Positions 16,497 through 58,018 of a stretch of 60,622 bases of DNA are shown piece by piece. Within the stretch, counting starts at the first letter, position 1. Every line of letters begins with the position of its first letter. The stretch comes from a virus. The translations under genes and the position numbers were made by a program. The stretch spans positions 1 to 60,622 of IMG/VR virus record IMGVR_UViG_3300042301_003480; one strand, 5' to 3'. The notes below the pieces were generated by a model. The model did not search any database. It was not told the DNA's origin and saw only the letters and a list, made by a program, of their open reading frames with translations.

Positions 16497-17105
16497 GTGC
16501 GAGTGCTAGCGCTGGTTCTCTGTGCTGCGGTGTGCAGCGGGGAAGAACTCCCCGTGCTGTGGAATCCCCCTTCCGGTTTTCCGCCCACGCTCAGAGACAT
16601 AGCCTCCCGGTTACCCCGAGATACCGACGCCAAGGAAGCGTGCCTGATCACCTACACGCATGAGGGTTCCCACTTTCTCTGCCGGGGGAAGAAGGGGTAT
16701 CACTGCGTCTATGTCGGGGAGGGGAAGCGGTGGGAAATTCCCACTCCCCCACTGGTCACGGAGGAGGTGTTTGCGGCCTTCCCCGGAGAGATGAGAGGGA
16801 CGACGCTGTACCGCATCTACCTCCGGCAAGGACAGACGGAATACTGGTCTGCCCAGCCGCTGATGATCTTGGATGAGTGGCGGGCCTACACCGTTGGGTC
16901 ACAGACCAGGCAGGAACTGGACATGACTACCCGGGCCGAGTCAGTTCGATACCTGGAGTCGTTTACCGTGTACGCCAAGGTGTTGTATGACCTGGCCAAA
17001 GAGATCGAAGGCTACGACATCAGCGAACTGCGAGCGTTCTGCCGATGGAACCTGGAGGAGTGCCGGAAGATTCGGGACTTCCAGAGCGAAGTGGAGTTTG
17101 ACTAG
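16497..17105 (+). CDS. Secreted zincin-like metallopeptidase candidate
   Basis: 202 aa from a GTG (MRVLALVLCAAVCSG), a signal peptide likely cut after AAVCSG. Residues His55-Glu56-Gly-Ser-His59 form an HExxH motif (ITYTHEGSHFLC), and a downstream LDEWRAY (Glu127) could give the third zinc ligand, as in gluzincins. The family (CRGKKGYHC, QTEYWSAQPL) recurs in environmental phage and bacterial genomes. It is the only plus-strand gene inside the late minus-strand run, so it resembles an inserted 'moron'. No ribosome-binding site is obvious. Confidence 0.65.
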   Translation: MRVLALVLCAAVCSGEELPVLWNPPSGFPPTLRDIASRLPRDTDAKEACLITYTHEGSHFLCRGKKGYHCVYVGEGKRWEIPTPPLVTEEVFAAFPGEMRGTTLYRIYLRQGQTEYWSAQPLMILDEWRAYTVGSQTRQELDMTTRAESVRYLESFTVYAKVLYDLAKEIEGYDISELRAFCRWNLEECRKIRDFQSEVEFD

Positions 17106-30592: not shown

Positions 30593-31363
30593 ATGCTGTA
30601 CGGATACTGTCGGGTTAGCACGGACATGCAGGACGCCTCATCAGAGGCACAGCGGGCGGCGCTGGAGGACTACGCCAAGCGTACCAACCAGACCCTGGCC
30701 GAGGTGTTTGTCGATGAGGATGTCAGCGGGTCCGTGCCCCTGAGAGATAGGCCAGCCGGCAAGCGGATGTGGGACCGGCTTCAGCGTGGGGATACCGTGG
30801 TTGTGACTACCAGGGACAGAGGCTTCCGTTCCCTGGTTGATGCGGCCACCACCCTCATGGCCTGGAGAGAGCAGGGCATCCGCCTGCATATCTGCGACTT
30901 CCCCATCGACCTATCCACGGACGAGGGGGAGCTGGTGTTTCTCCAGGGTGCGGTGTTCTCCCAGTACGAGCGGAAGCTGATCGGCCGCCGGATCAGGCGG
31001 GGGATCGAACACCGCAAGAAGACTGGTCAACCGTACGGTGGGACCAGGCCATGGGGCTGGATCCGCAAGGAGCAGAAGTGGGTGCCGCTACCCAAGGAGC
31101 GGGCTCACGGCAACCGCATGCTCACCATGCGCCGGGCGGGCTGCTCCTGGTACACTATCGCCGTCGCTTGCATGGATTGTCAGAAGCCCGCGGTGAGGAA
31201 GAACGGTTCCGGGTACTACCACGTTGCCGATGTTCGCACTCTTGTACGTGCGGCCGAAGCCGAATATCCAAAGCTAGCGCCAACTTTCTGGCGAGATCCC
31301 GACTGCGAACGGAAGCTAGTCGAACTGAAATCTGTTGCTCCTCTGCTATTCGTCGCAGAGTAA
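30593..31363 (+). CDS. Serine recombinase (resolvase/invertase family)
   Basis: 256 aa. YGYCRVSTDMQDASSEAQRA contains the catalytic Ser9 in the family RVST..Q motif; VFVDEDVSGSVPLRDRPAGK, VVVTTRDRGFRSLVDA and YERKLIGRRIRRGIEHRKK complete the resolvase domain and E-helix. The C-terminus (residues 140-256) is short and basic, without the large-serine-integrase zinc domain. Likely DNA inversion or dimer resolution, possibly integration. Its 3' end overlaps the opposite-strand sigma-like gene by 209 bases. Confidence 0.88.
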   Translation: MLYGYCRVSTDMQDASSEAQRAALEDYAKRTNQTLAEVFVDEDVSGSVPLRDRPAGKRMWDRLQRGDTVVVTTRDRGFRSLVDAATTLMAWREQGIRLHICDFPIDLSTDEGELVFLQGAVFSQYERKLIGRRIRRGIEHRKKTGQPYGGTRPWGWIRKEQKWVPLPKERAHGNRMLTMRRAGCSWYTIAVACMDCQKPAVRKNGSGYYHVADVRTLVRAAEAEYPKLAPTFWRDPDCERKLVELKSVAPLLFVAE

Positions 31364-31772
31364 GCGAGTCTTCAAACCTGCTCTGCGCAAGCTCCTGCTC
31401 CTCTTCAGGCAGGTCTTCGATGGCCAGGCGCAGGTAGTCGGGATGCTCCATCACTGGCAGGAGTTGCTCTGCCTCCGTGAGGGAGAGCTTCCATTCGCAC
31501 GGCTGCCGGGTGGACCGTTTGATCCACTTGTACATGGCGTTCATGATCGCCCGTGCGAAGTAGGCTTTCGGGTACGGCAGCCTGCTCTGATCGTACGTGC
31601 GGGCCGCCTTGGTCAGGGCCAGGAATCCCTCTGACTGGAGGTCGGGGAACAGCACGCCACGCTGCCAGCTCGGGCGGGTCTGAACGAAAAACTTGGCCAG
31701 CATTGAGGCCAAGGGCATGTACTCAACGACGTACGCTTGTCGTTTCTTTGAGAGCTTGGATCTGACTCGCAT
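31155..31772 (-). CDS. Sigma-factor-like protein
   Basis: 205 aa from the ATG at 31772 (31793 is possible). FPDLQSEGFLALTKAARTYD and YPKAYFARAIMNAMYKWIKR match sigma70 region 2; LPEEEQELAQSRFEDSLTLR and RRIAEEQQISVRLASVRSRD resemble region 4. It could redirect host RNA polymerase to phage promoters. The last 70 or so residues are Arg-rich and lie opposite the serine recombinase gene, so the functional protein may end earlier or the tail may be non-specific. Confidence 0.65.
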   Translation of the reverse strand: MRVRSKLSKKRQAYVVEYMPLASMLAKFFVQTRPSWQRGVLFPDLQSEGFLALTKAARTYDQSRLPYPKAYFARAIMNAMYKWIKRSTRQPCEWKLSLTEAEQLLPVMEHPDYLRLAIEDLPEEEQELAQSRFEDSLTLRRIAEEQQISVRLASVRSRDLARKLALALDIRLRPHVQECEHRQRGSTRNRSSSPRASDNPCKRRR

Positions 31773-31947
31773 GTTCGTTGAGTCGATGTTCATGCTCGCG
31801 CAGTATCTCGCGTAGCTCATCGACGACATCGGGCAGGTCTTGCACCGACGATGCGATCACCGCCACCTTGGCGTGGATCGAAAAGGCCCACGGTACGACG
31901 GCGCATACGCCCGTCAGGATCACCATCCACACCTCAATCTCCATCAT
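31723..31947 (-). CDS. Membrane-anchored coiled-coil protein (holin/XhlA-like?)
   Basis: 74 aa (ATG at 31947 or 31944, GGAGGG upstream). The N-terminal hydrophobic helix (VWMVILTGVCAVVPWAFSI) is followed by an acidic coiled coil (VVDELREILREHEHRLNEHA). This design is seen in holin accessory and XhlA-like proteins. It overlaps the sigma-like gene by 50 bases. Confidence 0.55.
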   Translation of the reverse strand: MMEIEVWMVILTGVCAVVPWAFSIHAKVAVIASSVQDLPDVVDELREILREHEHRLNEHASQIQALKETTSVRR

Positions 31948-32173
31948 CGGCCCTCCGAATCATGCTCACTAACATCAGCCCTGCGTACGGATGCAGGGAT
32001 CCCTCTTCCACATGCAGCTTCACCATTCGTCGGGCTCGGTCGGCTTCGTCGGGCGGGTACTGGTAGATGTGAGTGTGGCCGTCGTAGACGGCGATAGCTC
32101 TGCTAATGCGTCGAACGCCACGCTTTGAATCTGTTTCAAATCCTGACGATTCAAAATCCATTTCGTAATCCAT
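31934..32173 (-). CDS. Hypothetical acidic/basic protein (79 aa)
   Basis: Starts MDYEMDFESSGFETDSKRGV and contains AVYDGHTHIYQYPPDEADRA. The protein-like composition argues it is real although the upstream gene runs 154 bases into it in another frame. Unknown. Confidence 0.5.
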   Translation of the reverse strand: MDYEMDFESSGFETDSKRGVRRISRAIAVYDGHTHIYQYPPDEADRARRMVKLHVEEGSLHPYAGLMLVSMIRRADDGD

Positions 32174-32394
32174 GCGCTGATGACCGAGATCAGAATGGGC
32201 AGGACCAGGATGATGAACACCGACCCCACGTTGGGGTTGCCCAGGAGGAACGACTTCCGCATGGCCTGCCGTCGCTGCTTGCCGGCCAGTGGGCAGTAGA
32301 TCAACCCGAGCAGGGCGATCTCTTCGCTGTGCTTGCTCATGCCACGGGCGCCAGTGTCCCGCAGGCAGTCGTAGACTATCTCTTCGGCGCGCAT
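32020..32394 (-). CDS. Single-pass membrane protein
   Basis: 124 aa from the ATG at 32394. The N-terminal helical region (RAEEIVYDCLRDTGARGMSK) precedes one strong transmembrane segment (SVFIILVLPILISVISAWIT). The last 30 residues are Ser/Thr/Pro low complexity and coincide with the overlap onto the 31934-32173 gene. Possible lysis-region protein. Confidence 0.55.
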   Translation of the reverse strand: MRAEEIVYDCLRDTGARGMSKHSEEIALLGLIYCPLAGKQRRQAMRKSFLLGNPNVGSVFIILVLPILISVISAWITKWILNRQDLKQIQSVAFDALAELSPSTTATLTSTSTRPTKPTEPDEW

Positions 32395-32651
32395 GTCCCG
32401 TCTGGGCAGGTCTGATGAACGATCACGGACGGGTGCTTCACCGCCTTGCACTCGCAGTCCGGAGGGCAGGGGCAGGGAGTCTTGTGCCCGTCACCGTGGA
32501 TGATGAACCCACCCTTGCACACGCCGCAGCATTTCTTGGAGTGGGTGTCCACTTGCTGGGTGTGGATCACGTACGCCGCATGGACGGCCACCGGGCCCGT
32601 CATGTCGGGGGCAGGGAAGAACGACAGGAACCAGGCGAGCAGTTCAATCAT
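32376..32651 (-). CDS. Cys-rich membrane/secreted protein
   Basis: 91 aa from the ATG at 32651. The hydrophobic N-terminus (IELLAWFLSFFPAPDM) is followed by a Cys-rich segment (CCGVCKGGFIIHGDGHKTPC and CPCPPDCECK). This CCGLCKG..I.HGDGH pattern recurs in environmental phages. Probably metal-binding and envelope-associated. Overlaps both neighbours. Confidence 0.65.
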   Translation of the reverse strand: MIELLAWFLSFFPAPDMTGPVAVHAAYVIHTQQVDTHSKKCCGVCKGGFIIHGDGHKTPCPCPPDCECKAVKHPSVIVHQTCPDGTCAPKR

Positions 32652-33594
32652 GGCGGAGGAGTCCGATGGTGCCGTAGTCGGGGAGTTTCTGAGGCGGAAA
32701 ACCATCGACTGATCCGTATGCGTAGCAATCGCCGCCGCGGACGCACACCTCCCAGTCCTCTGCCTTGGTGACGATCATGCCAGGGACGTACTTCGGGTAG
32801 TCGGATGGCCACTCCTTGGGCGCCTGACACCATGGTCCCCAGCTATTTGCAATGAAGAACACATCGAACGGCCAGAACTTTCGGGTGAAGTCCATCCCAA
32901 CCGTAGCCATCGCGTGACTCCATCCGCCGGCAGCCCGAGGATGGATGTGATCCTTGTTGGGGGTGGGCGACCACGCAGCGAACTGTCCCGACGCTACGCA
33001 GTAGCCATTGAACAAGGCATCCACTGCGTCCTGGACGCGAGTGAGCTGTCGGATGATGCCGACCTTGTTCTGTCGGCAGAGCGCCTTCACATCTTCCGGA
33101 ACTCCACGCCCGCCCCAGCCTGCGCCGATGCTGGACTTGTAAACCGAGAGATCCACGGGCTCGTACTTCTTGCGAATGAGGAAGCCGACCTCGTTCTCAA
33201 ACGTCGCCGCTCGGGCAGGCGACATGCCCTGGCCGGTGTGACCGCGGGCACCATAGGTTGGTTCCGTGGCGCCACGCACAATGAAGTCTTCAGGCCGGCG
33301 CTCAACGAGGATCTGTGTCGCACGGCTTGTGTCTCGGGCATTCCGCGAGCAGTGGCTCGTACAATCTCCAGTAGTCTGGCGCTCAGTGAACGACAGCGGA
33401 TCCAGTGCTTGGGTGTACTGCCACAGCAAAGCACGCTGGCCCTGCCCGCTGCCCATGATGTTGGGCTCCGAATACACCGACTGCTTCTGTGATTCCGAGA
33501 ACAGGCCCCGCTCGCGCGGGCTATCGATGTACCCCTGCAAGCCCTCCTCGTAGGCGGAGAGCAACTGCATCGGATTGTCGAAGTCGTCACTCAC
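32644..33594 (-). CDS. Papain-like cysteine peptidase
   Basis: 316 aa. C1-type catalytic order is visible: oxyanion Gln73 and nucleophile Cys78 in RQTTGDCTSH, His227 in GGWSHAMATVG, and Asn250 in FFIANSWGPW. No signal peptide. Phage members of this fold could act as lytic or entry peptidases, or process proteins. It lies among membrane proteins and next to a subtilisin-like protease, suggesting a host-envelope target. Confidence 0.75.
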   Translation of the reverse strand: MSDDFDNPMQLLSAYEEGLQGYIDSPRERGLFSESQKQSVYSEPNIMGSGQGQRALLWQYTQALDPLSFTERQTTGDCTSHCSRNARDTSRATQILVERRPEDFIVRGATEPTYGARGHTGQGMSPARAATFENEVGFLIRKKYEPVDLSVYKSSIGAGWGGRGVPEDVKALCRQNKVGIIRQLTRVQDAVDALFNGYCVASGQFAAWSPTPNKDHIHPRAAGGWSHAMATVGMDFTRKFWPFDVFFIANSWGPWCQAPKEWPSDYPKYVPGMIVTKAEDWEVCVRGGDCYAYGSVDGFPPQKLPDYGTIGLLRHD

Positions 33595-34018
33595 TCTGCT
33601 TCTCCACCGCCCGACATCCGGCTGCGATCTTGCCCGCCATCACCGGGTCGATGGGCAAGTTGTCCAGCGGGTAATGCTCTGCCAGTACCTTCTCCACCGC
33701 CTTGTCCAACCCCGGGTATTTCCCGACGAGGTCGGTGCCACCAGCGGCCAGCCGGAGCGCGTCTGCATAGATGGCGCGCCACACGGCGGTGGTAGGTATC
33801 AGCTTGCCACCATCCCGTTCGATCAGGTCGGCCAGCGAAGCGTAGATGCTGGCGACTCGGGCCCGTTCCGCGGAGGAAGCGGAGGACAGGGCCACGGCGA
33901 CGGGGCCGGTTGCGGCTGACCGCTGGGGCAGGGACACAAATTGCAGGGCGGCAAACAACACCGCACCTGCCAAGAGTAAGTGCTTTACTGGAGTAGTGCT
34001 TGCAAGAGCTGCGTGCAT
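33587..34018 (-). CDS. Membrane-anchored/secreted protein
   Basis: 143 aa from the ATG at 34018. An N-terminal hydrophobic segment (VKHLLLAGAVLFAALQFVSL) acts as signal or anchor, followed by a helical domain (RVASIYASLADLIERDGGKL, AVEKVLAEHYPLDNLPIDP). Unknown; coupled to the papain-like gene. Confidence 0.55.
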   Translation of the reverse strand: MHAALASTTPVKHLLLAGAVLFAALQFVSLPQRSAATGPVAVALSSASSAERARVASIYASLADLIERDGGKLIPTTAVWRAIYADALRLAAGGTDLVGKYPGLDKAVEKVLAEHYPLDNLPIDPVMAGKIAAGCRAVEKQSE

Positions 34019-34182
34019 GCCTTGCGTACCTCGGGGCTGGAGTTTGAGTCTCGGATAGCCAGTACGGATTCGATCTGCTTCATGCTGCTTGGCTTTGCGG
34101 CTGGCCATTTGATGCTCGGGAAGTACACGTACGCCGCCGCCAAGGCGACGACAACCAGACTGACGATCTGCATGGTGTTCAT
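33985..34182 (-). CDS. Small membrane protein (65 aa)
   Basis: N-terminal transmembrane helix (IVSLVVVALAAAYVYFPSIK) then a soluble helix. The ATG overlaps the subtilase stop (ATGA). Together with 33587-34018 it forms a pair of overlapping envelope proteins, reminiscent of spanin arrangements but without lipoprotein boxes. Confidence 0.6.
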   Translation of the reverse strand: MNTMQIVSLVVVALAAAYVYFPSIKWPAAKPSSMKQIESVLAIRDSNSSPEVRKACTQLLQALLQ

Positions 34183-35123
34183 AGAATGCGGGCCCCGGGA
34201 ATGAAGATGGTTACCCCCTCAATGCTGGCGGTGGCGGTGTAGGTCAGGAGTTTGTGCGGATCCAGCAGGCCCCAGCCGTACTCGGGATCCCGGCCATGGG
34301 GACCAGCGTCTCGGCATGTCTCACTGAGTGCTTTGAGGGCGGCAGATGCGTCCAGCTTCTTGCCTGATTTCTTGGCGTCGGATGCCCACAACGCAAGCAC
34401 ACCCGTGACGAACGGCGCCGCCATGCTCGTCCCGGAAATGGTGGCGTATCCCTCCGCCAGCCAGGTGCTGGTGATGTCCTGGCCCGGCGCCGCCACCACA
34501 ATCTCTTTCCCCCGGGATGAGAACTGGCAGACGTTGCCTTCCTTGTCCACCGCACCCACGGCAATCGTCTCAGTGAACGCGGCCGGGTAGTTCACTGCAC
34601 CACCGTCATTCCCAGCGGCGCACACCACAATCACACCAGCGGCCGTAGCCCTGCGGATCGCCTCATGCACCCTGGCGTCCGGCCTGGCACACCCGAGGGA
34701 CATGCACACCAGATCCACCTTGGCCTCGCAGGCATGCGTGACTGCGGTGGCGACAGCCTCGTTGCTGCCCATGCCTGAGTGACCCAGCACCTTCATGCTG
34801 ATGAGCTTGGCGCCGGGGGCGATGCCCTTGGCCAGACCGGACTTCGCACCGATCACCCCGGCTACGTGCGTCCCATGACCGAGGGTGTCGTAGACATCGG
34901 AGTCCGACGAGAAGTTCCTGTAGTCAACCACCACATCCTTGAGTGCGGTGTGTGGCGCCACCCCGGAATCAATCACGGCTACGGTCACGCCTTCCCCCTT
35001 GGTGTGCTTCCACAGCCCGGGGATTCCATAGCCGGCCACAGCCCAGTCCACCCCCTCCTGTACCGAATGTGGTACATGCTGGAGATCAACACGGTAGGGG
35101 GGGAGGTGGACGAAGTCATTCAT
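34179..35123 (-). CDS. Subtilisin-like serine protease (S8)
   Basis: 314 aa from the ATG at 35123. Complete catalytic set: Asp52 (TVAVIDSGVAP), His83 (GHGTHVAGVIG), Asn172 (CAAGNDGG) and Ser233 (ISGTSMAAPFVTG). No recognisable signal peptide or long propeptide. Subtilases are unusual among phage genes. Flanked by membrane proteins, it may work in lysis or as a processed virion enzyme. Confidence 0.92.
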   Translation of the reverse strand: MNDFVHLPPYRVDLQHVPHSVQEGVDWAVAGYGIPGLWKHTKGEGVTVAVIDSGVAPHTALKDVVVDYRNFSSDSDVYDTLGHGTHVAGVIGAKSGLAKGIAPGAKLISMKVLGHSGMGSNEAVATAVTHACEAKVDLVCMSLGCARPDARVHEAIRRATAAGVIVVCAAGNDGGAVNYPAAFTETIAVGAVDKEGNVCQFSSRGKEIVVAAPGQDITSTWLAEGYATISGTSMAAPFVTGVLALWASDAKKSGKKLDASAALKALSETCRDAGPHGRDPEYGWGLLDPHKLLTYTATASIEGVTIFIPGARIL

Positions 35124-35445
35124 CGGGCGACAACGCTCGCAGGATGGCAATAAGAATCGGCAGGATGACCTGGATCAGGCTCTGCCAGTCAACACCCATG
35201 GCCTGGACCTCGGCGCCTAAGGCAAAGGCAGACACCTCATCCGACTCCCAGGTGTCCGAGGCCAGCAGCGTGCCGGCGTCCACACCCTCACGCTCAAACA
35301 CCGGGATCACCAGGCGGGCGATCTCATCCACCACCTCCCACTGGGAGATGTAGTTGCCGTCGCGGTTGAACTTCTTGGCCGCGGCAATCACGGCCAGCAG
35401 GAGTTCACGGTGCTTGAGCAACCAACTAATCACCTTGATATTCAT
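35116..35445 (-). CDS. Hypothetical protein with hydrophobic C-terminal helix
   Basis: 109 aa from the ATG at 35445 (AGGA 8 nt upstream). N-terminal SWLLKHRELLLAVIAAAKKF and C-terminal WQSLIQVILPILIAILRALS are amphipathic or membrane-interacting. Overlaps the protease start by 8 bases. Possibly a membrane-perturbing protein. Confidence 0.55.
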   Translation of the reverse strand: MNIKVISWLLKHRELLLAVIAAAKKFNRDGNYISQWEVVDEIARLVIPVFEREGVDAGTLLASDTWESDEVSAFALGAEVQAMGVDWQSLIQVILPILIAILRALSPDE

Positions 35446-35812
35446 GCGAATTTTCCTCATGGTCTAGCACCGCTATCGCCACAACCGCGTGGCCCGCAAT
35501 GTCCAGTAGCGTTTCCCGAATCTTGTCATACTGCCCATCGACTATTGCCCCCCGAAGGCCACCGCAGCGGCGAACCTTTTCCCCGATTCGGGCGAGCTGG
35601 TAAACCCACGGGGGAATGCCCTGTTCTGCCACGCCCAGGGCGTTGTCCAATGGTCCCTCCTCCCGGCAGCCGTAGTAACCTCGCTTCCGGGTGAGCAGGG
35701 TGTGCAATGTCTCACAGATATCAAGGTACGGATCACCACTCCTGCTGTCGGGCAGCCTGCTGTATTCGTCCGTATTCGCTCCAGAAACTGGGATGGTGGT
35801 ACGGGTCTTCAT
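35426..35812 (-). CDS. Nucleotide-modification-associated-like phage protein
   Basis: 128 aa from the ATG at 35812 (GGAGG upstream). The pattern RKRGYYGCREEGPLDNALGV, PPWVYQLARIGEKVRR and ETLLDIAGHAVVAIAVLDHE resembles phage all-alpha proteins related to the DUF1599 group, with conserved Lys/Arg and a terminal LLDIA.YA helix. Role in nucleotide metabolism is a family-level guess. Confidence 0.55.
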   Translation of the reverse strand: MKTRTTIPVSGANTDEYSRLPDSRSGDPYLDICETLHTLLTRKRGYYGCREEGPLDNALGVAEQGIPPWVYQLARIGEKVRRCGGLRGAIVDGQYDKIRETLLDIAGHAVVAIAVLDHEENSHEYQGD

Positions 35813-36077
35813 CGTTGTCCTCCGTGTCAATTAAGTACACCGTGCGGGCATGTGCCCACTCCTCCACAAACGTATCGATCAAGCCTACGCGATCTTGGGT
35901 TTCCAAGATACTGATGACTCCGCGTTCTTCGTCGTCGTCAAAGGTAAAAAACCCGAGGTGGTTTTCCATCCTCGCCGGAGGTCGGAGGTACACCCGGATC
36001 GGGTAGGTGATCGGGAACCGCTCCTCCGCCCACAGCTTGAGCCGCTTGAGCAATCGCTTTCGCCAGTCTTGGGGCAT
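35733..36077 (-). CDS. Metallopeptidase-like protein with degenerate motif
   Basis: 114 aa from the ATG at 36077. DRVGLIDTFVEEWAHARTVY aligns with the HEWAH zinc motif of small phage metalloproteases, but the first His is Glu (EEWAH). HHPSFWSEYGRI downstream supplies further His residues. It may be inactive or bind metal differently. Its 5' part overlaps the resolvase-like gene. Confidence 0.5.
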   Translation of the reverse strand: MPQDWRKRLLKRLKLWAEERFPITYPIRVYLRPPARMENHLGFFTFDDDEERGVISILETQDRVGLIDTFVEEWAHARTVYLIDTEDNDEDPYHHPSFWSEYGRIQQAARQQEW

Positions 36078-36360
36078 CGTCAAGCCTCACTATGAGCAGC
36101 CAGGGTTTGTTGTTCCGGCGGTGGAGTACGACCGGCGCGTTCTTCCCTGCATCTCGGACGGCCTGATCCATCCACACGTAGGGGTTGCCAGCCTCCACTC
36201 GCTTCACCTCTACATGAATGCCCGCCATGCCGGTGATCACATCCGGACTCTCTGTCCCGCCCGCAAATTGCTGGCCTCTCCTGGCGGCCACGCCGAACAC
36301 ATCCGTCCAGGCACGGGCTGCTTCCCGCTCCCCTCTTGCGCCTTTGGATCGACTATTCAT
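35938..36360 (-). CDS. Holliday-junction-resolvase-like nuclease
   Basis: 140 aa from the ATG at 36360. The N-terminal MNSRSKGARGEREAARAW, QQFAGGTESPDVI and GIHVEVKRVE show the E...PD...ExK layout of PD-(D/E)xK resolvases, and QAVRDAGKNAPVVLHRRN completes the fold. The last 45 residues overlap the next gene in another frame and look unstructured. It probably resolves recombination or replication intermediates before packaging. Confidence 0.7.
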   Translation of the reverse strand: MNSRSKGARGEREAARAWTDVFGVAARRGQQFAGGTESPDVITGMAGIHVEVKRVEAGNPYVWMDQAVRDAGKNAPVVLHRRNNKPWLLIVRLDDAPRLAKAIAQAAQAVGGGAVPDHLPDPGVPPTSGEDGKPPRVFYL

Positions 36361-54296: not shown

Positions 54297-55223
54297 CTAT
54301 GGGTAACCGGCCTTGGGCTTGAGCGTGTAGAGGATTTGCCCAAACACCTCCGGAGCCCGGTCGATTTGCAGTTGCACGTTGACGTTTTCTTCCACCGTAT
54401 CCACGCCGTCAGGGACCAGCTCGCAACTGTCGGCGTCAAAGCGATATTTCGGAACATCCACAGAAACAGTGGCCGCCTTCACGGTTACGTTCTGGACGAG
54501 GTTTACCTGGAAGCGGCCGTCCACCTGGCGGAGTTCGTAGCCGCCCCCAATCCCGGGCAGGCCGGGCAGGCCGGGAATGCCGGGAAGCCCAGCAACACCC
54601 GCCGCGCCGGCGGGGCCAGCAGCACCAGCCGCACCAGCGGCACCAGCCAAGCCCGCCGCACCAGCCGCGCCCGCCGGCCCAGCCACGCCCGGGGCTCCGT
54701 CCGCTCCAGCCGCACCTGCCAGTCCGGCGGCACCAGACACGCCCGGCTGACCATCCACGCCATTAAAGCCGTTGATCCCGTTGATGCCGTCCGAACCGAT
54801 CACGCCGTTGATGATGGTGGTGGGGAACAGGTTGGTGTTGTAGTTGGCGTTGGTGTTGAACAAAAACTCGTCGCCAGCGAAGTTGTTGTTCAGGGTGTTG
54901 AAGTAGTTGTTGTAGGTGGGGATGTCGATGAAGGAGTTGTTGTTGAACACCTGAGAAACATCAGTGAACTGGTTGATCAGGTTTTGATTCCAAACGCCGC
55001 CATCGCTGTACACCCCTGGCCCGAAAGAGCCTCCGCCGCCCTGGCCGCCGCCCAGGCCCAGCTCGTTCTGTGGCGTCCTGGTAGTGGGGCGGATCGCAAC
55101 TGGCCCCCGGTGTTCCAGGGGCTGGTTGCAGTTGCCCAACGCCTGCATCATCCGCCGCACGGCCATTTGGGGCATCACGCCCTGCATGGCCTGCGCTAGC
55201 GCCGGCATGGCCTGGGTAAGCAT
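54297..55223 (-). CDS. Collagen-like tail/virion protein
   Basis: 308 aa. N-terminal helix (MPALAQAMQGVMPQMAVRRM), an Asn-rich middle (NNYFNTLNNNFAGDEFLFNT), then about 25 Gly-x-y triplets (AGAAGLAGAAGADGAPGVAG, LPGIPGLPGLPGIGG) forming a likely triple helix, and a beta C-terminal domain. Such trimeric shafts serve as tail fibres or appendages. Start overlaps the nozzle stop. Confidence 0.75.
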   Translation of the reverse strand: MLTQAMPALAQAMQGVMPQMAVRRMMQALGNCNQPLEHRGPVAIRPTTRTPQNELGLGGGQGGGGSFGPGVYSDGGVWNQNLINQFTDVSQVFNNNSFIDIPTYNNYFNTLNNNFAGDEFLFNTNANYNTNLFPTTIINGVIGSDGINGINGFNGVDGQPGVSGAAGLAGAAGADGAPGVAGPAGAAGAAGLAGAAGAAGAAGPAGAAGVAGLPGIPGLPGLPGIGGGYELRQVDGRFQVNLVQNVTVKAATVSVDVPKYRFDADSCELVPDGVDTVEENVNVQLQIDRAPEVFGQILYTLKPKAGYP

Positions 55224-58018
55224 TACTTGACCCCCATGATGCGGACGCCAAACAGAGCCACTTGGTCAGCCGCCTGCGTGCCTGCGACCTGCACGGCAAG
55301 ATGCTGATCTCCGCCGGCGCTCCGCTCGCTCTTGCGGCCAGAGTAGTGCGCCACTGCCGTGCCGGTCGCCTCGCCCAGAGCAGACCGCGTCCGCTTCAGA
55401 TTGATCGTCGCCGGCCCGCCAGCGGTCACCGTAAAGCCTGTGCCAGTGTTGGACTGAATGGCATTCTGCCGGGCGGTGTCGGAGTTGTTGAAGTGCAGCG
55501 ACACGTTCAGGTTGCTGTCCCCCGTGGTGGGCTTGTACTGCACGGCGATGCCCCGGTCGGGTTCGTCGGTGAGCGACATGTTGCCAGTGCGGAGCGAGTA
55601 GGAGACACCCGTCCCGCCGTCCTGCGTCCCGGACTCCTTGCGCCACGCGCCATCGCCCCCGCCGGAAGTCAGTCGCAACTGCCCGCTGATTGTCGGCACG
55701 GAAGTTGCCGTGACTGCCGTGGCGTACGACTCTTCCCACCAGGCTTGCGTGGCAGTGCAGTAGCAGAGTGCCCGCACGGGCTCGGAGTCGGTGGAGCGGC
55801 AGTAATAGAACCGCACCGTGCGAGTCAGGGGGTCGCAGGCAACGTGGAACTTGTCCGACTTGGAGAAGTCGATGATCCGGTCCCGCCAGTAGTTATCGAC
55901 GGCGACAGAGATGCTCTGCTCGGAGTTGCCGTCGAAGGCGTACAGGCCCACGGAGTCCACCAGAAAGGCCACCCCTGACAAGACACCCCAGCAGCGGCTG
56001 TTCAGTACGCCACGGTGCGCGGCCAGCAGGATGGAGGCATCCAGGACGGGCTGGGCCACGTACATCATCTGGTAGATGTGCGAGGTCTGGCAGACCAGCA
56101 GCATGGAGCCGAAGGGGACGAGGGCCACAATCCTGTCTGGGAGCCCTGTGTTTTCTTGCAGCACCAGCTCATTGGCCGCCGGCACGCTTTCTGGCTCGTC
56201 AATCTCGGAGTAGTACAGGCTGTTGGGGGCCTGGCCAGAGGTGTCCACGGCGTACCAAGTGCGGTCCTGGAACATGACGCCCACGGCAAACTTGCCCGAT
56301 GGCACTTCAAATCGCCGGGCGTTGATCTGCCCGCTGGGAAGCGTGACCGGCATGAGGCCGTAGCCTTCCCGCTTGGGGTCGGTCAGGTCGGGGTCGCTCA
56401 GTGTGTCGGTGTAGGTGGTGGCCCAGTTGGGGTCGGTCTTCTGGATGGTGGCCACGCGGAACAGCACAACCGCCTGGTCGCCCGATGTCCTCCACAGCTC
56501 CATCGCCGTGACGCGGTCGTCCACGTAGGGGTGCGCAAACGTCCACAGCACCTGCCCGGATCCCGTCCCTGCCTCTAGTTCGACCAGATGGGAGATAGAG
56601 GAGGCAAGCGGCCCGCCCACCTCGGGGTCAGTGTTGTCGATGTAGCGGATGGCACACAGGTACTTCCCCCGCATGGGCTCGGCAACGCTAGCCTGTGCGC
56701 GGGCGTGCGTGTCGGCAATCAACGCGGTGGGCGGGGCCGTGTACTGACCTCCCCGGGCCACGGTCACGGATGCGATCTCGCCGGCCGTGTTGACCGTAGC
56801 CTCTAGCTCTGCACCGCCTCCGAAGGGATCGGTGGCGGCAGGCCGGACGGTGATGAACGGGGCAGTGAAGAACCCGCTGCCCGCGCTGGTCGCAGACACG
56901 GACACCACGGAGTACGTGACATCGCCGGCGGCCGCAGCGCCGGACCCCGTCCCCGCGCCGATGGTGAAGGTCGGCGTGGTGGTGGCACCAGAGCCGGGGT
57001 TGAGTACCTGGATGCTATCGACCAGCCCGTCGCCGTTGACCACCACGGAGCCGACGAAGCCCGTTAGGCCATTGCTGGTGTTCACGGCAATGGTCGGGGC
57101 CTGGGTTCCGGACTGCACGTACCCAGAGCCCCGGTTGGTAATCCGGAGGCCAGAAATGACCCCATTGACCCCCACGCCGAACGCAGCCCCAGAGCCCAGC
57201 CCGCCTGAAAACGACACGGTCGGGTTGGACTGGTAGCCAGAGCCAGGATCGGACACCCGCACGCCCACCACGGAGCCGTTGACGATCAGGGCCTGGGCCG
57301 TGGCCGGGCGGGTGGGCGTGCCGCCAGAGATCGTCACCGTGGGCACAGAGGAATAGCCCCGCCCACCGTCTACCATCTGGATGGACGACACTCGCTTGCC
57401 GGCGGAGGTGGAGCCCGCCGTGACCACGGGAGCCCGGGCGGGCTTGTGCAGACCAATGGGCTGAACCGACGCTGCCCCACCTGGCCAGCGGATGCCCCGG
57501 CCCATGCCGTCCACGCCGTAGACCGTGCCAAACCGCCCTTTGAAGAAGCTCATGGGACGCAGGACGCCCGTGTGGGCGTATGCCACCGCTGACGCCCCGG
57601 AACCCAGGTGCATAAGGGTCGCCGCGCCGGTCGTTGCCGTGGTGGCGGCGGTGAGTTGCGTGGTGTTGAAAAACACCGCATTGGCCGTCACGCCACCGCT
57701 GATGAGCTTGGGCCAAGACAGGTCTGTGACTGCCGACGCCAGCGTCACCGTCACAGAGGCGGTGCCTGCCGTGATGGAGGAAATCGTCACCCCGGCAGAC
57801 GGGACGGTAAACGACACAGTCGGGCTGGCCGTGTGCCCAGTTCCGCCGTTGGCAATGATCACAGAGTCCAGCCGCGTGCCAGCCATCACGGCCACGGCAG
57901 AAACGCCCGTCCCGCCAGCACCGCTCACCACCACCCCGGGGGCGGAGGTGTAGTCCTTGCCCCCGGTGACGATACGGATCGACGCCAGTTGCCCCGTGGT
58001 ACGGTTGCCGATCAGCAT
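55223..58018 (-). CDS. Tail nozzle-like protein
   Basis: 931 aa. The first 400 residues hold repeated beta units of the type GxGYxxxPTVxxSGG (for example GGRGYSSVPTVTISGG, GSGYQSNPTVSFSGG). The second half (LPDRIVALVPFGSMLLVCQT, YQMMYVAQPV, HRGVLNSRCWGVLSGVAFLV, YWRDRIIDF, VRFYYCR) resembles beta-propeller tail-tube B/nozzle proteins of T7-like phages. Follows the adaptor gene. Confidence 0.7.
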   Translation of the reverse strand: MLIGNRTTGQLASIRIVTGGKDYTSAPGVVVSGAGGTGVSAVAVMAGTRLDSVIIANGGTGHTASPTVSFTVPSAGVTISSITAGTASVTVTLASAVTDLSWPKLISGGVTANAVFFNTTQLTAATTATTGAATLMHLGSGASAVAYAHTGVLRPMSFFKGRFGTVYGVDGMGRGIRWPGGAASVQPIGLHKPARAPVVTAGSTSAGKRVSSIQMVDGGRGYSSVPTVTISGGTPTRPATAQALIVNGSVVGVRVSDPGSGYQSNPTVSFSGGLGSGAAFGVGVNGVISGLRITNRGSGYVQSGTQAPTIAVNTSNGLTGFVGSVVVNGDGLVDSIQVLNPGSGATTTPTFTIGAGTGSGAAAAGDVTYSVVSVSATSAGSGFFTAPFITVRPAATDPFGGGAELEATVNTAGEIASVTVARGGQYTAPPTALIADTHARAQASVAEPMRGKYLCAIRYIDNTDPEVGGPLASSISHLVELEAGTGSGQVLWTFAHPYVDDRVTAMELWRTSGDQAVVLFRVATIQKTDPNWATTYTDTLSDPDLTDPKREGYGLMPVTLPSGQINARRFEVPSGKFAVGVMFQDRTWYAVDTSGQAPNSLYYSEIDEPESVPAANELVLQENTGLPDRIVALVPFGSMLLVCQTSHIYQMMYVAQPVLDASILLAAHRGVLNSRCWGVLSGVAFLVDSVGLYAFDGNSEQSISVAVDNYWRDRIIDFSKSDKFHVACDPLTRTVRFYYCRSTDSEPVRALCYCTATQAWWEESYATAVTATSVPTISGQLRLTSGGGDGAWRKESGTQDGGTGVSYSLRTGNMSLTDEPDRGIAVQYKPTTGDSNLNVSLHFNNSDTARQNAIQSNTGTGFTVTAGGPATINLKRTRSALGEATGTAVAHYSGRKSERSAGGDQHLAVQVAGTQAADQVALFGVRIMGVK

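Follow-up and report, generated by a model that had tools for sequence, protein, structure and literature searches.

To our knowledge, every phage lysis enzyme yet described targets peptidoglycan, pseudomurein or the synthesis of these polymers. A 2015 review proposed for archaeal viruses that a holin and a protease together mediate egress, no gene being known (PMC4456609). Here we describe a gene cassette on the minus strand (positions 31723-36083) of a 60,622-base stretch of phage DNA, hereafter the window, which is a single IMG/VR virus record (IMGVR_UViG_3300042301_003480). The cassette encodes a papain-fold cysteine protease with an intact catalytic set, a subtilisin, a holin and several further envelope-targeted proteins, and no recognisable murein hydrolase accompanies them. 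With the archaeal-virus proposal it shares the idea of a holin acting with proteolytic enzymes against a protein envelope; unlike that proposal, a hypothesis without a gene, it is a conserved gene set, and in viruses of bacteria. We think it probable, with confidence somewhat better than even, that this cassette serves a group of Planctomycetota phages and prophages as their lysis module, in which a protease stands in the endolysin's place and attacks a disulfide-linked protein wall.

The closest working counterpart is the holin-endolysin cassette, including the variant with signal-arrest-release (SAR) endolysins. The two have in common a holin, a small number of envelope-targeted genes, a terminase nearby in several phages, and a wall enzyme that comes in soluble or membrane-anchored forms and is exchanged among phages of one host group. 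They differ in the enzyme, here a C1A-fold protease accompanied by a subtilisin or a trypsin-like protease, with no peptidoglycan hydrolase found; for the helical anchor protein and for the Cys-rich or thioredoxin partner we know of no counterpart in endolysin cassettes. In its working the cassette resembles a holin-endolysin system; we do not class it as one, since no murein hydrolase, the defining component, was found.

Three relatives, G002 (60,286 bases), G006 (61,865) and G008 (62,982), are circular permutations of the window, and homologous genes cross their ends; the window is thus a near-complete genome, and genes absent from it can be interpreted. Besides the cassette it encodes a P22-like portal, a terminase, ERF, SSB, a helicase, a serine recombinase and an integrase-like gene, and the phage is probably temperate. 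In order of transcription the cassette runs g061, x35426, g060, subtilisin, g058, g057, papain, g055, g054 and g053. This order is preserved in relatives down to 57% papain identity, and the ratio of nonsynonymous to synonymous substitution rates (dN/dS) against G002 is 0.04 for the papain and 0.09 for both the subtilisin and g061; the remaining cassette genes lie at 0.13-0.36. Because order is conserved and dN/dS lies well below 1 for every gene, these are real genes and not chance reading frames. By ascending coordinate they are:

31723-31947, minus strand: g053, a 74-residue holin, identified by homology only (phrog_1296, E 1.3e-5), with one N-terminal membrane segment and then a coiled tail; its position at the cassette end is conserved in relatives.
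32020-32394, minus strand: g054, a small membrane protein with a hydrophobic segment; order conserved, no family match in Pfam or PHROG.
32376-32651, minus strand: g055, a hydrophobic N-terminus and a Cys-rich domain (CCGVCKGG..HGDGHKTPCPCPPDCECK).
32644-33594, minus strand: g056, the papain-fold (C1A-like) cysteine protease, 316 residues, without a signal peptide.
33587-34108, minus strand: g057, a membrane-anchored helical protein whose start is uncertain (34108 or 33961).
33985-34182, minus strand: g058, a small single-pass membrane protein; order conserved, cluster of 30 loci.
34179-35123, minus strand: g059, a subtilisin of the intracellular subtilisin protease (ISP) type with an N-terminal LPPY segment.
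35116-35445, minus strand: g060, a conserved protein with hydrophobic ends; order conserved, cluster of 45 loci.
35426-35830, minus strand: x35426, a conserved protein with a weak phrog_1485 match (E 2.4e-6), in 37 loci; dN/dS 0.17.
35733-36083, minus strand: g061, a metallopeptidase-like protein with a degenerate EEWAH motif.

An initial annotation, made from the sequence by itself, had reported a papain-like peptidase, a complete subtilisin, a degenerate metallopeptidase and several membrane proteins here, and a secreted zincin-like gene elsewhere. All of these are present; the membrane proteins are g053, g054, g055, g057 and g058, and the holin identity of g053 had escaped it.

The fold of the papain was assigned from a structural model; single-sequence searches of Pfam and the PDB with the window protein returned no match. 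The AlphaFold2 model (mean predicted local distance difference test score, pLDDT, 90.7) matches C1A proteases, with chains of that family at Z 17-21 and xylellain best (3ois; Z 20.9, root-mean-square deviation 3.0, 230 residues aligned). An alignment of 39 diverse relatives shows no variation at C78 and H227 and conservation of at least 90% at Q73 and at N250, the latter in an NSW motif. The Pfam Peptidase_C1 model gave weak matches in six of these 39 relatives (best E 0.0012) and left the window protein unmatched; the window papain and two distant papains had no match among 50,697 phage records. It has the fold, as modelled, and the catalytic residues of a protease; its activity and its substrate we infer. 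With peptidase family C1A (papain, cathepsins, xylellain) it shares the fold and the Q-C-H-N catalytic set in order, but it has no significant Pfam or PDB sequence match, carries a motif of its own (ATEPxYG) and keeps company with g057 and g055. It belongs to a new family.

A widened search placed this family in at least 586 IMG/VR loci, and the papain is almost the only gene common to the window and to otherwise unrelated phages of 32-170 kb, which fits a lysis module exchanged within one host group. The same traffic bears on a reading in which the proteases are packaged in the virion and open the protein wall at infection, the holin being a mere neighbour. A protein wall would suit proteases at entry as much as at exit, and in most phages the papain lacks a signal peptide; however, the cassette lies outside the window's structural genes and pairs the proteases with anchored or secreted partners; it moves among phages with differing virion genes, and holins of different families adjoin it. 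We regard this entry or ejection role as unlikely and less well supported than lysis. Two further observations concern individual carriers. One record of 117,778 bases, G004 (IMGVR_UViG_3300049595_001870), holds two diverged regions with subtilisin and papain, at about 9 kb and 66.5 kb and thus ~57 kb apart, which may reflect a double provirus or the assembly of two related phages into one record. The 97-kb phage of locus L129 (G036), which carries a papain cassette, contains one uninterrupted reading frame, 5,768 residues long, at 71707-89013.

Next to the papain family, holins and terminase genes recur. At L116 and L136 holins of other families stand beside the cassette. Proximity to the terminase is a usual position of a lysis cassette, and terminase genes closely follow the cassette in L044, L047, L155 and L156. 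Holins and terminase neighbours point to late expression, which argues against a role in lysogens, where anchored proteases made by the prophage would trim surface receptors and so change the surface or exclude superinfecting phages. The recombinase and integrase-like genes of the window phage, the existence of prophage copies and the envelope-targeted proteins would all suit such a role; yet phages of 97-170 kb (not searched for lysogeny genes) carry the cassette too, and we consider this role very unlikely.

The partners of the papain extend beyond the window's own clade. A g057 profile built from that clade only recovers g057 in distant cassettes, at position -1 relative to the papain and with E values as low as 4e-12; with the full g057 profile it is found in 78 of 92 loci. 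At +1 to +3 of the papain, 32 of 89 loci encode a Cys-rich protein with the motif C..C..[HS]GDG, which appears in none of the control neighbourhoods. Of the criteria tried for such proteins the GDG-type motif alone was specific: of the 89 loci a strict filter for secreted CxxC proteins retained just 19, and counting CxxC loosely was unspecific. Proteins like g055 have lipobox-like starts in L121, L133 and L158, and in L116 and L156 they are fused to a thioredoxin; a lipobox-like start also occurs in a g057-like protein of L157, and none was found in the window when it was examined for a spanin pair. Thioredoxin beside the papain is a feature of relatives (Thioredoxin_7 in L156, 32 bits vs a cut-off of 27; weaker in L045), and the window has g055 instead.

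These separate genes are united in L046, where one protein of 651 residues consists of a membrane anchor, a g057 domain, the papain and a thioredoxin-like end with CPPC, in the same order as that of the separate genes. Its model has a mean pLDDT of 68 and is of low confidence outside the papain, and the thioredoxin-like C-terminus was recognised by sequence similarity to L156, not from the model. Most papains are soluble, and those of L046-L049, L155 and L156 have an N-terminal anchor. Such anchoring, the L046 fusion to an anchored g057 and a thioredoxin-like end, and the envelope proteins that neighbour the papain speak against a purely cytosolic function, in which the proteases would work inside the cell, either to degrade host proteins or to process those of the virion. 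That function is favoured by the lack of a signal peptide in the papain and subtilisin of the window and by the cytosolic action of intracellular subtilisins (PMC6220982); we nonetheless hold host takeover or capsid maturation to be the least probable of the readings weighed here.

The second protease, g059, matches Pfam S8 over the full domain (E 2.4e-51) with its D, H and S motifs (DSG, GHGT, GTSMA) intact, and its best PDB matches are intracellular subtilisins. From the ATG start its N-terminus reads MNDFVHLPPYRV, without a signal peptide and with LPPY at residues 7-10. Intracellular subtilisins carry an inhibitory LIPY at the N-terminus (PMC6220982), and since LPPY stands in its place, the enzyme is probably made inactive in the cytosol and held so by this segment. 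The catalytic domain and the N-terminal segment are thus the points of likeness to known ISPs; unlike them, g059 is phage-borne and sits in a cassette with a holin, and in one distant phage, L045, a secreted trypsin-like protease (Trypsin_2, E 3.5e-17) replaces it. The subtilisin frame is interrupted by one in-frame stop in G001 and by one in G006, through sequencing error or as a pseudogene. Given these stops and the trypsin-like protease of L045, the second protease may be exchangeable and the papain the constant. The reading of g061, the third peptidase-like gene, as an active metallopeptidase with HExxH was rejected: the window and each of the 11 listed relatives have EEW[A/S]H instead, which makes the degeneracy a trait of the family.

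No lysozyme, amidase or CHAP domain had been recognised in the initial annotation, and none emerged here. Pfam scans of the main window genes found no peptidoglycan hydrolase family, and six-frame searches with GH24, Amidase_2, CHAP, M23 and SLT, by which alone about two dozen small plus-strand window genes were covered, were negative in all 34 virus records (the window and 33 others) and positive in control genomes. One PHROG match to a 'tail lysozyme', in g084, was rejected: it is confined to positions 824-901 of a 932-position profile, far towards the C-terminus, and GH24 lysozyme is absent. That gene (55223-58018, minus strand) matches the head-closure family Hc2 and, through repeats, several baseplate families.

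Papain matches in bacterial genomes fall mostly in metagenome-assembled genomes (MAGs) named Pirellulaceae, Planctomycetaceae, Pirellulales and Thermoguttaceae, and in Singulisphaera acidiphila DSM 18658, where the gene lies near 5.23 Mb; the planctomycete MAGs were found with a broader search, a narrow scan of genome contigs having given nothing. Phage terminase genes lie near the papain in L155, L156 and L140, and the context of L158 is less clear. Cys-rich YTV proteins occur in planctomycete wall preparations, and most Planctomycetales have lost peptidoglycan synthesis genes (PMC8567305). Among 392 Planctomycetota genomes, 13 carry the papain and 42 encode YTV proteins, and the papain is confined to YTV-positive genomes (13 of 13; Fisher 4e-14, without correction for kinship). 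None of the 42 YTV-positive genomes has the GT51 polymerase, which is also missing from 31 of 37 YTV-negative ones. Papain cassettes were also seen in MAGs assigned elsewhere, namely L136 and L138 (Lokiarchaeota), L137 (Flavobacteriales) and L131 (Synechococcaceae); these, probably misbinned phage contigs, were set aside, though the host range of the cassette may be wider than Planctomycetota.

Several points weigh against lysis by proteolysis of the wall. The 13 papain hits include some that are weak or of doubtful prophage context (L158), and the association statistic ignores kinship among their genomes. RodA/FtsW is present in eight of the 13 papain-carrying hosts and absent in five, and lysozyme-sensitive sacculi were reported from several planctomycete species (Jeske et al. 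2015, PMC4432640), so that peptidoglycan may still need cutting. A novel peptidoglycan hydrolase may be encoded in these phage genomes, and the negative result in the relatives holds for the named families, Amidase_3, NlpC/P60, M15, GH19, GH25 and others not having been searched there. Finally, having no signal peptide, the papain and subtilisin of the window rely on the holin to reach the wall. Of the initial suggestion that proteases lyse hosts with a proteinaceous envelope, the lytic part is favoured by the holin, the failure to find a murein hydrolase, the YTV-positive hosts and the envelope-targeted partners; the idea that all hosts lack peptidoglycan is not upheld, given RodA/FtsW in eight of 13.

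The hosts that keep RodA/FtsW also lend something to the possibility that the papain is itself an unusual peptidoglycan peptidase, a new endolysin family that cuts cross-link peptides. Papain-like folds include murein peptidases (CHAP, NlpC/P60), and some viral proteins of papain fold among weak Foldseek matches are annotated as lysins. The fold and the Q, C, H, N set are nevertheless of C1A type and most like those of cathepsins and xylellain; all 13 hosts lack GT51, and the five without RodA/FtsW include four of the five best papain matches. We consider this explanation quite unlikely.

We infer for the cassette a role in lysis, and with it a substrate, a timing and a redox function. In outline, the proteases would accumulate late in infection, either soluble, as most papains and the subtilisin, or membrane-anchored in the manner of SAR endolysins (L046-L049, L155, L156), until the holin opens the inner membrane. 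The anchored helical g057 would hold the papain at the envelope, where it would cleave a disulfide-linked Cys-rich wall protein; g055, or a thioredoxin in its place, would keep the catalytic cysteine, the wall disulfides or both reduced, and the subtilisin, or a trypsin-like protease in another phage, would contribute a second cutting specificity. The full scheme, that Planctomycetota phages lyse without an endolysin by means of a holin-released or membrane-anchored cysteine protease that dissolves a protein wall linked by disulfides, helped by a Cys-rich or disulfide-reducing partner, we put forward tentatively, at slightly under even confidence.

Two other window genes may be connected with the cassette:

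31155-31829, minus strand: a sigma-70-like gene that follows the holin (Sigma70_r2 E 1.5e-6, Sigma70_r4 E 0.004), near the cassette in 44 loci.
About 16497-17105, plus strand: a secreted zincin-like protein (HEGSH), start codon uncertain, recognised from sequence.

The sigma-70-like gene is a possible late-gene regulator, and its membership of the module is uncertain. It lies antisense to the serine recombinase (30593-31363, plus strand), with an overlap of ~200 bases at the recombinase 3′ end, and both partners are Pfam-supported. The zincin-like gene stands among structural genes in the window but beside the cassette in L042, L072, L076, L080, L087 and L089, and it may be a displaced cassette member; its L080 homologue has no Pfam match.

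We found no prior description of the cassette in the literature searched, most subscription journals being outside it, so that an earlier description is possible. A search on phages of planctomycetes gave a single, unrelated paper, and in a 2025 survey of viral lytic proteins, 'planctomyc' and 'papain' are absent from the main text (PMC12596118). If the proposal is true, the cassette defines a family of phage lysis enzymes with protein as the wall target, distributed across hundreds of phages, and bears on how viruses leave cells with a protein-based envelope. Since prophage copies exist in planctomycetes whose genomes are sequenced, Singulisphaera acidiphila DSM 18658 among them, the question is testable. 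An answer would inform the debate about how the planctomycete wall is held together, would supply enzymes for opening planctomycete cells, and would give a marker gene by which uncultured phages could be assigned to planctomycete hosts.

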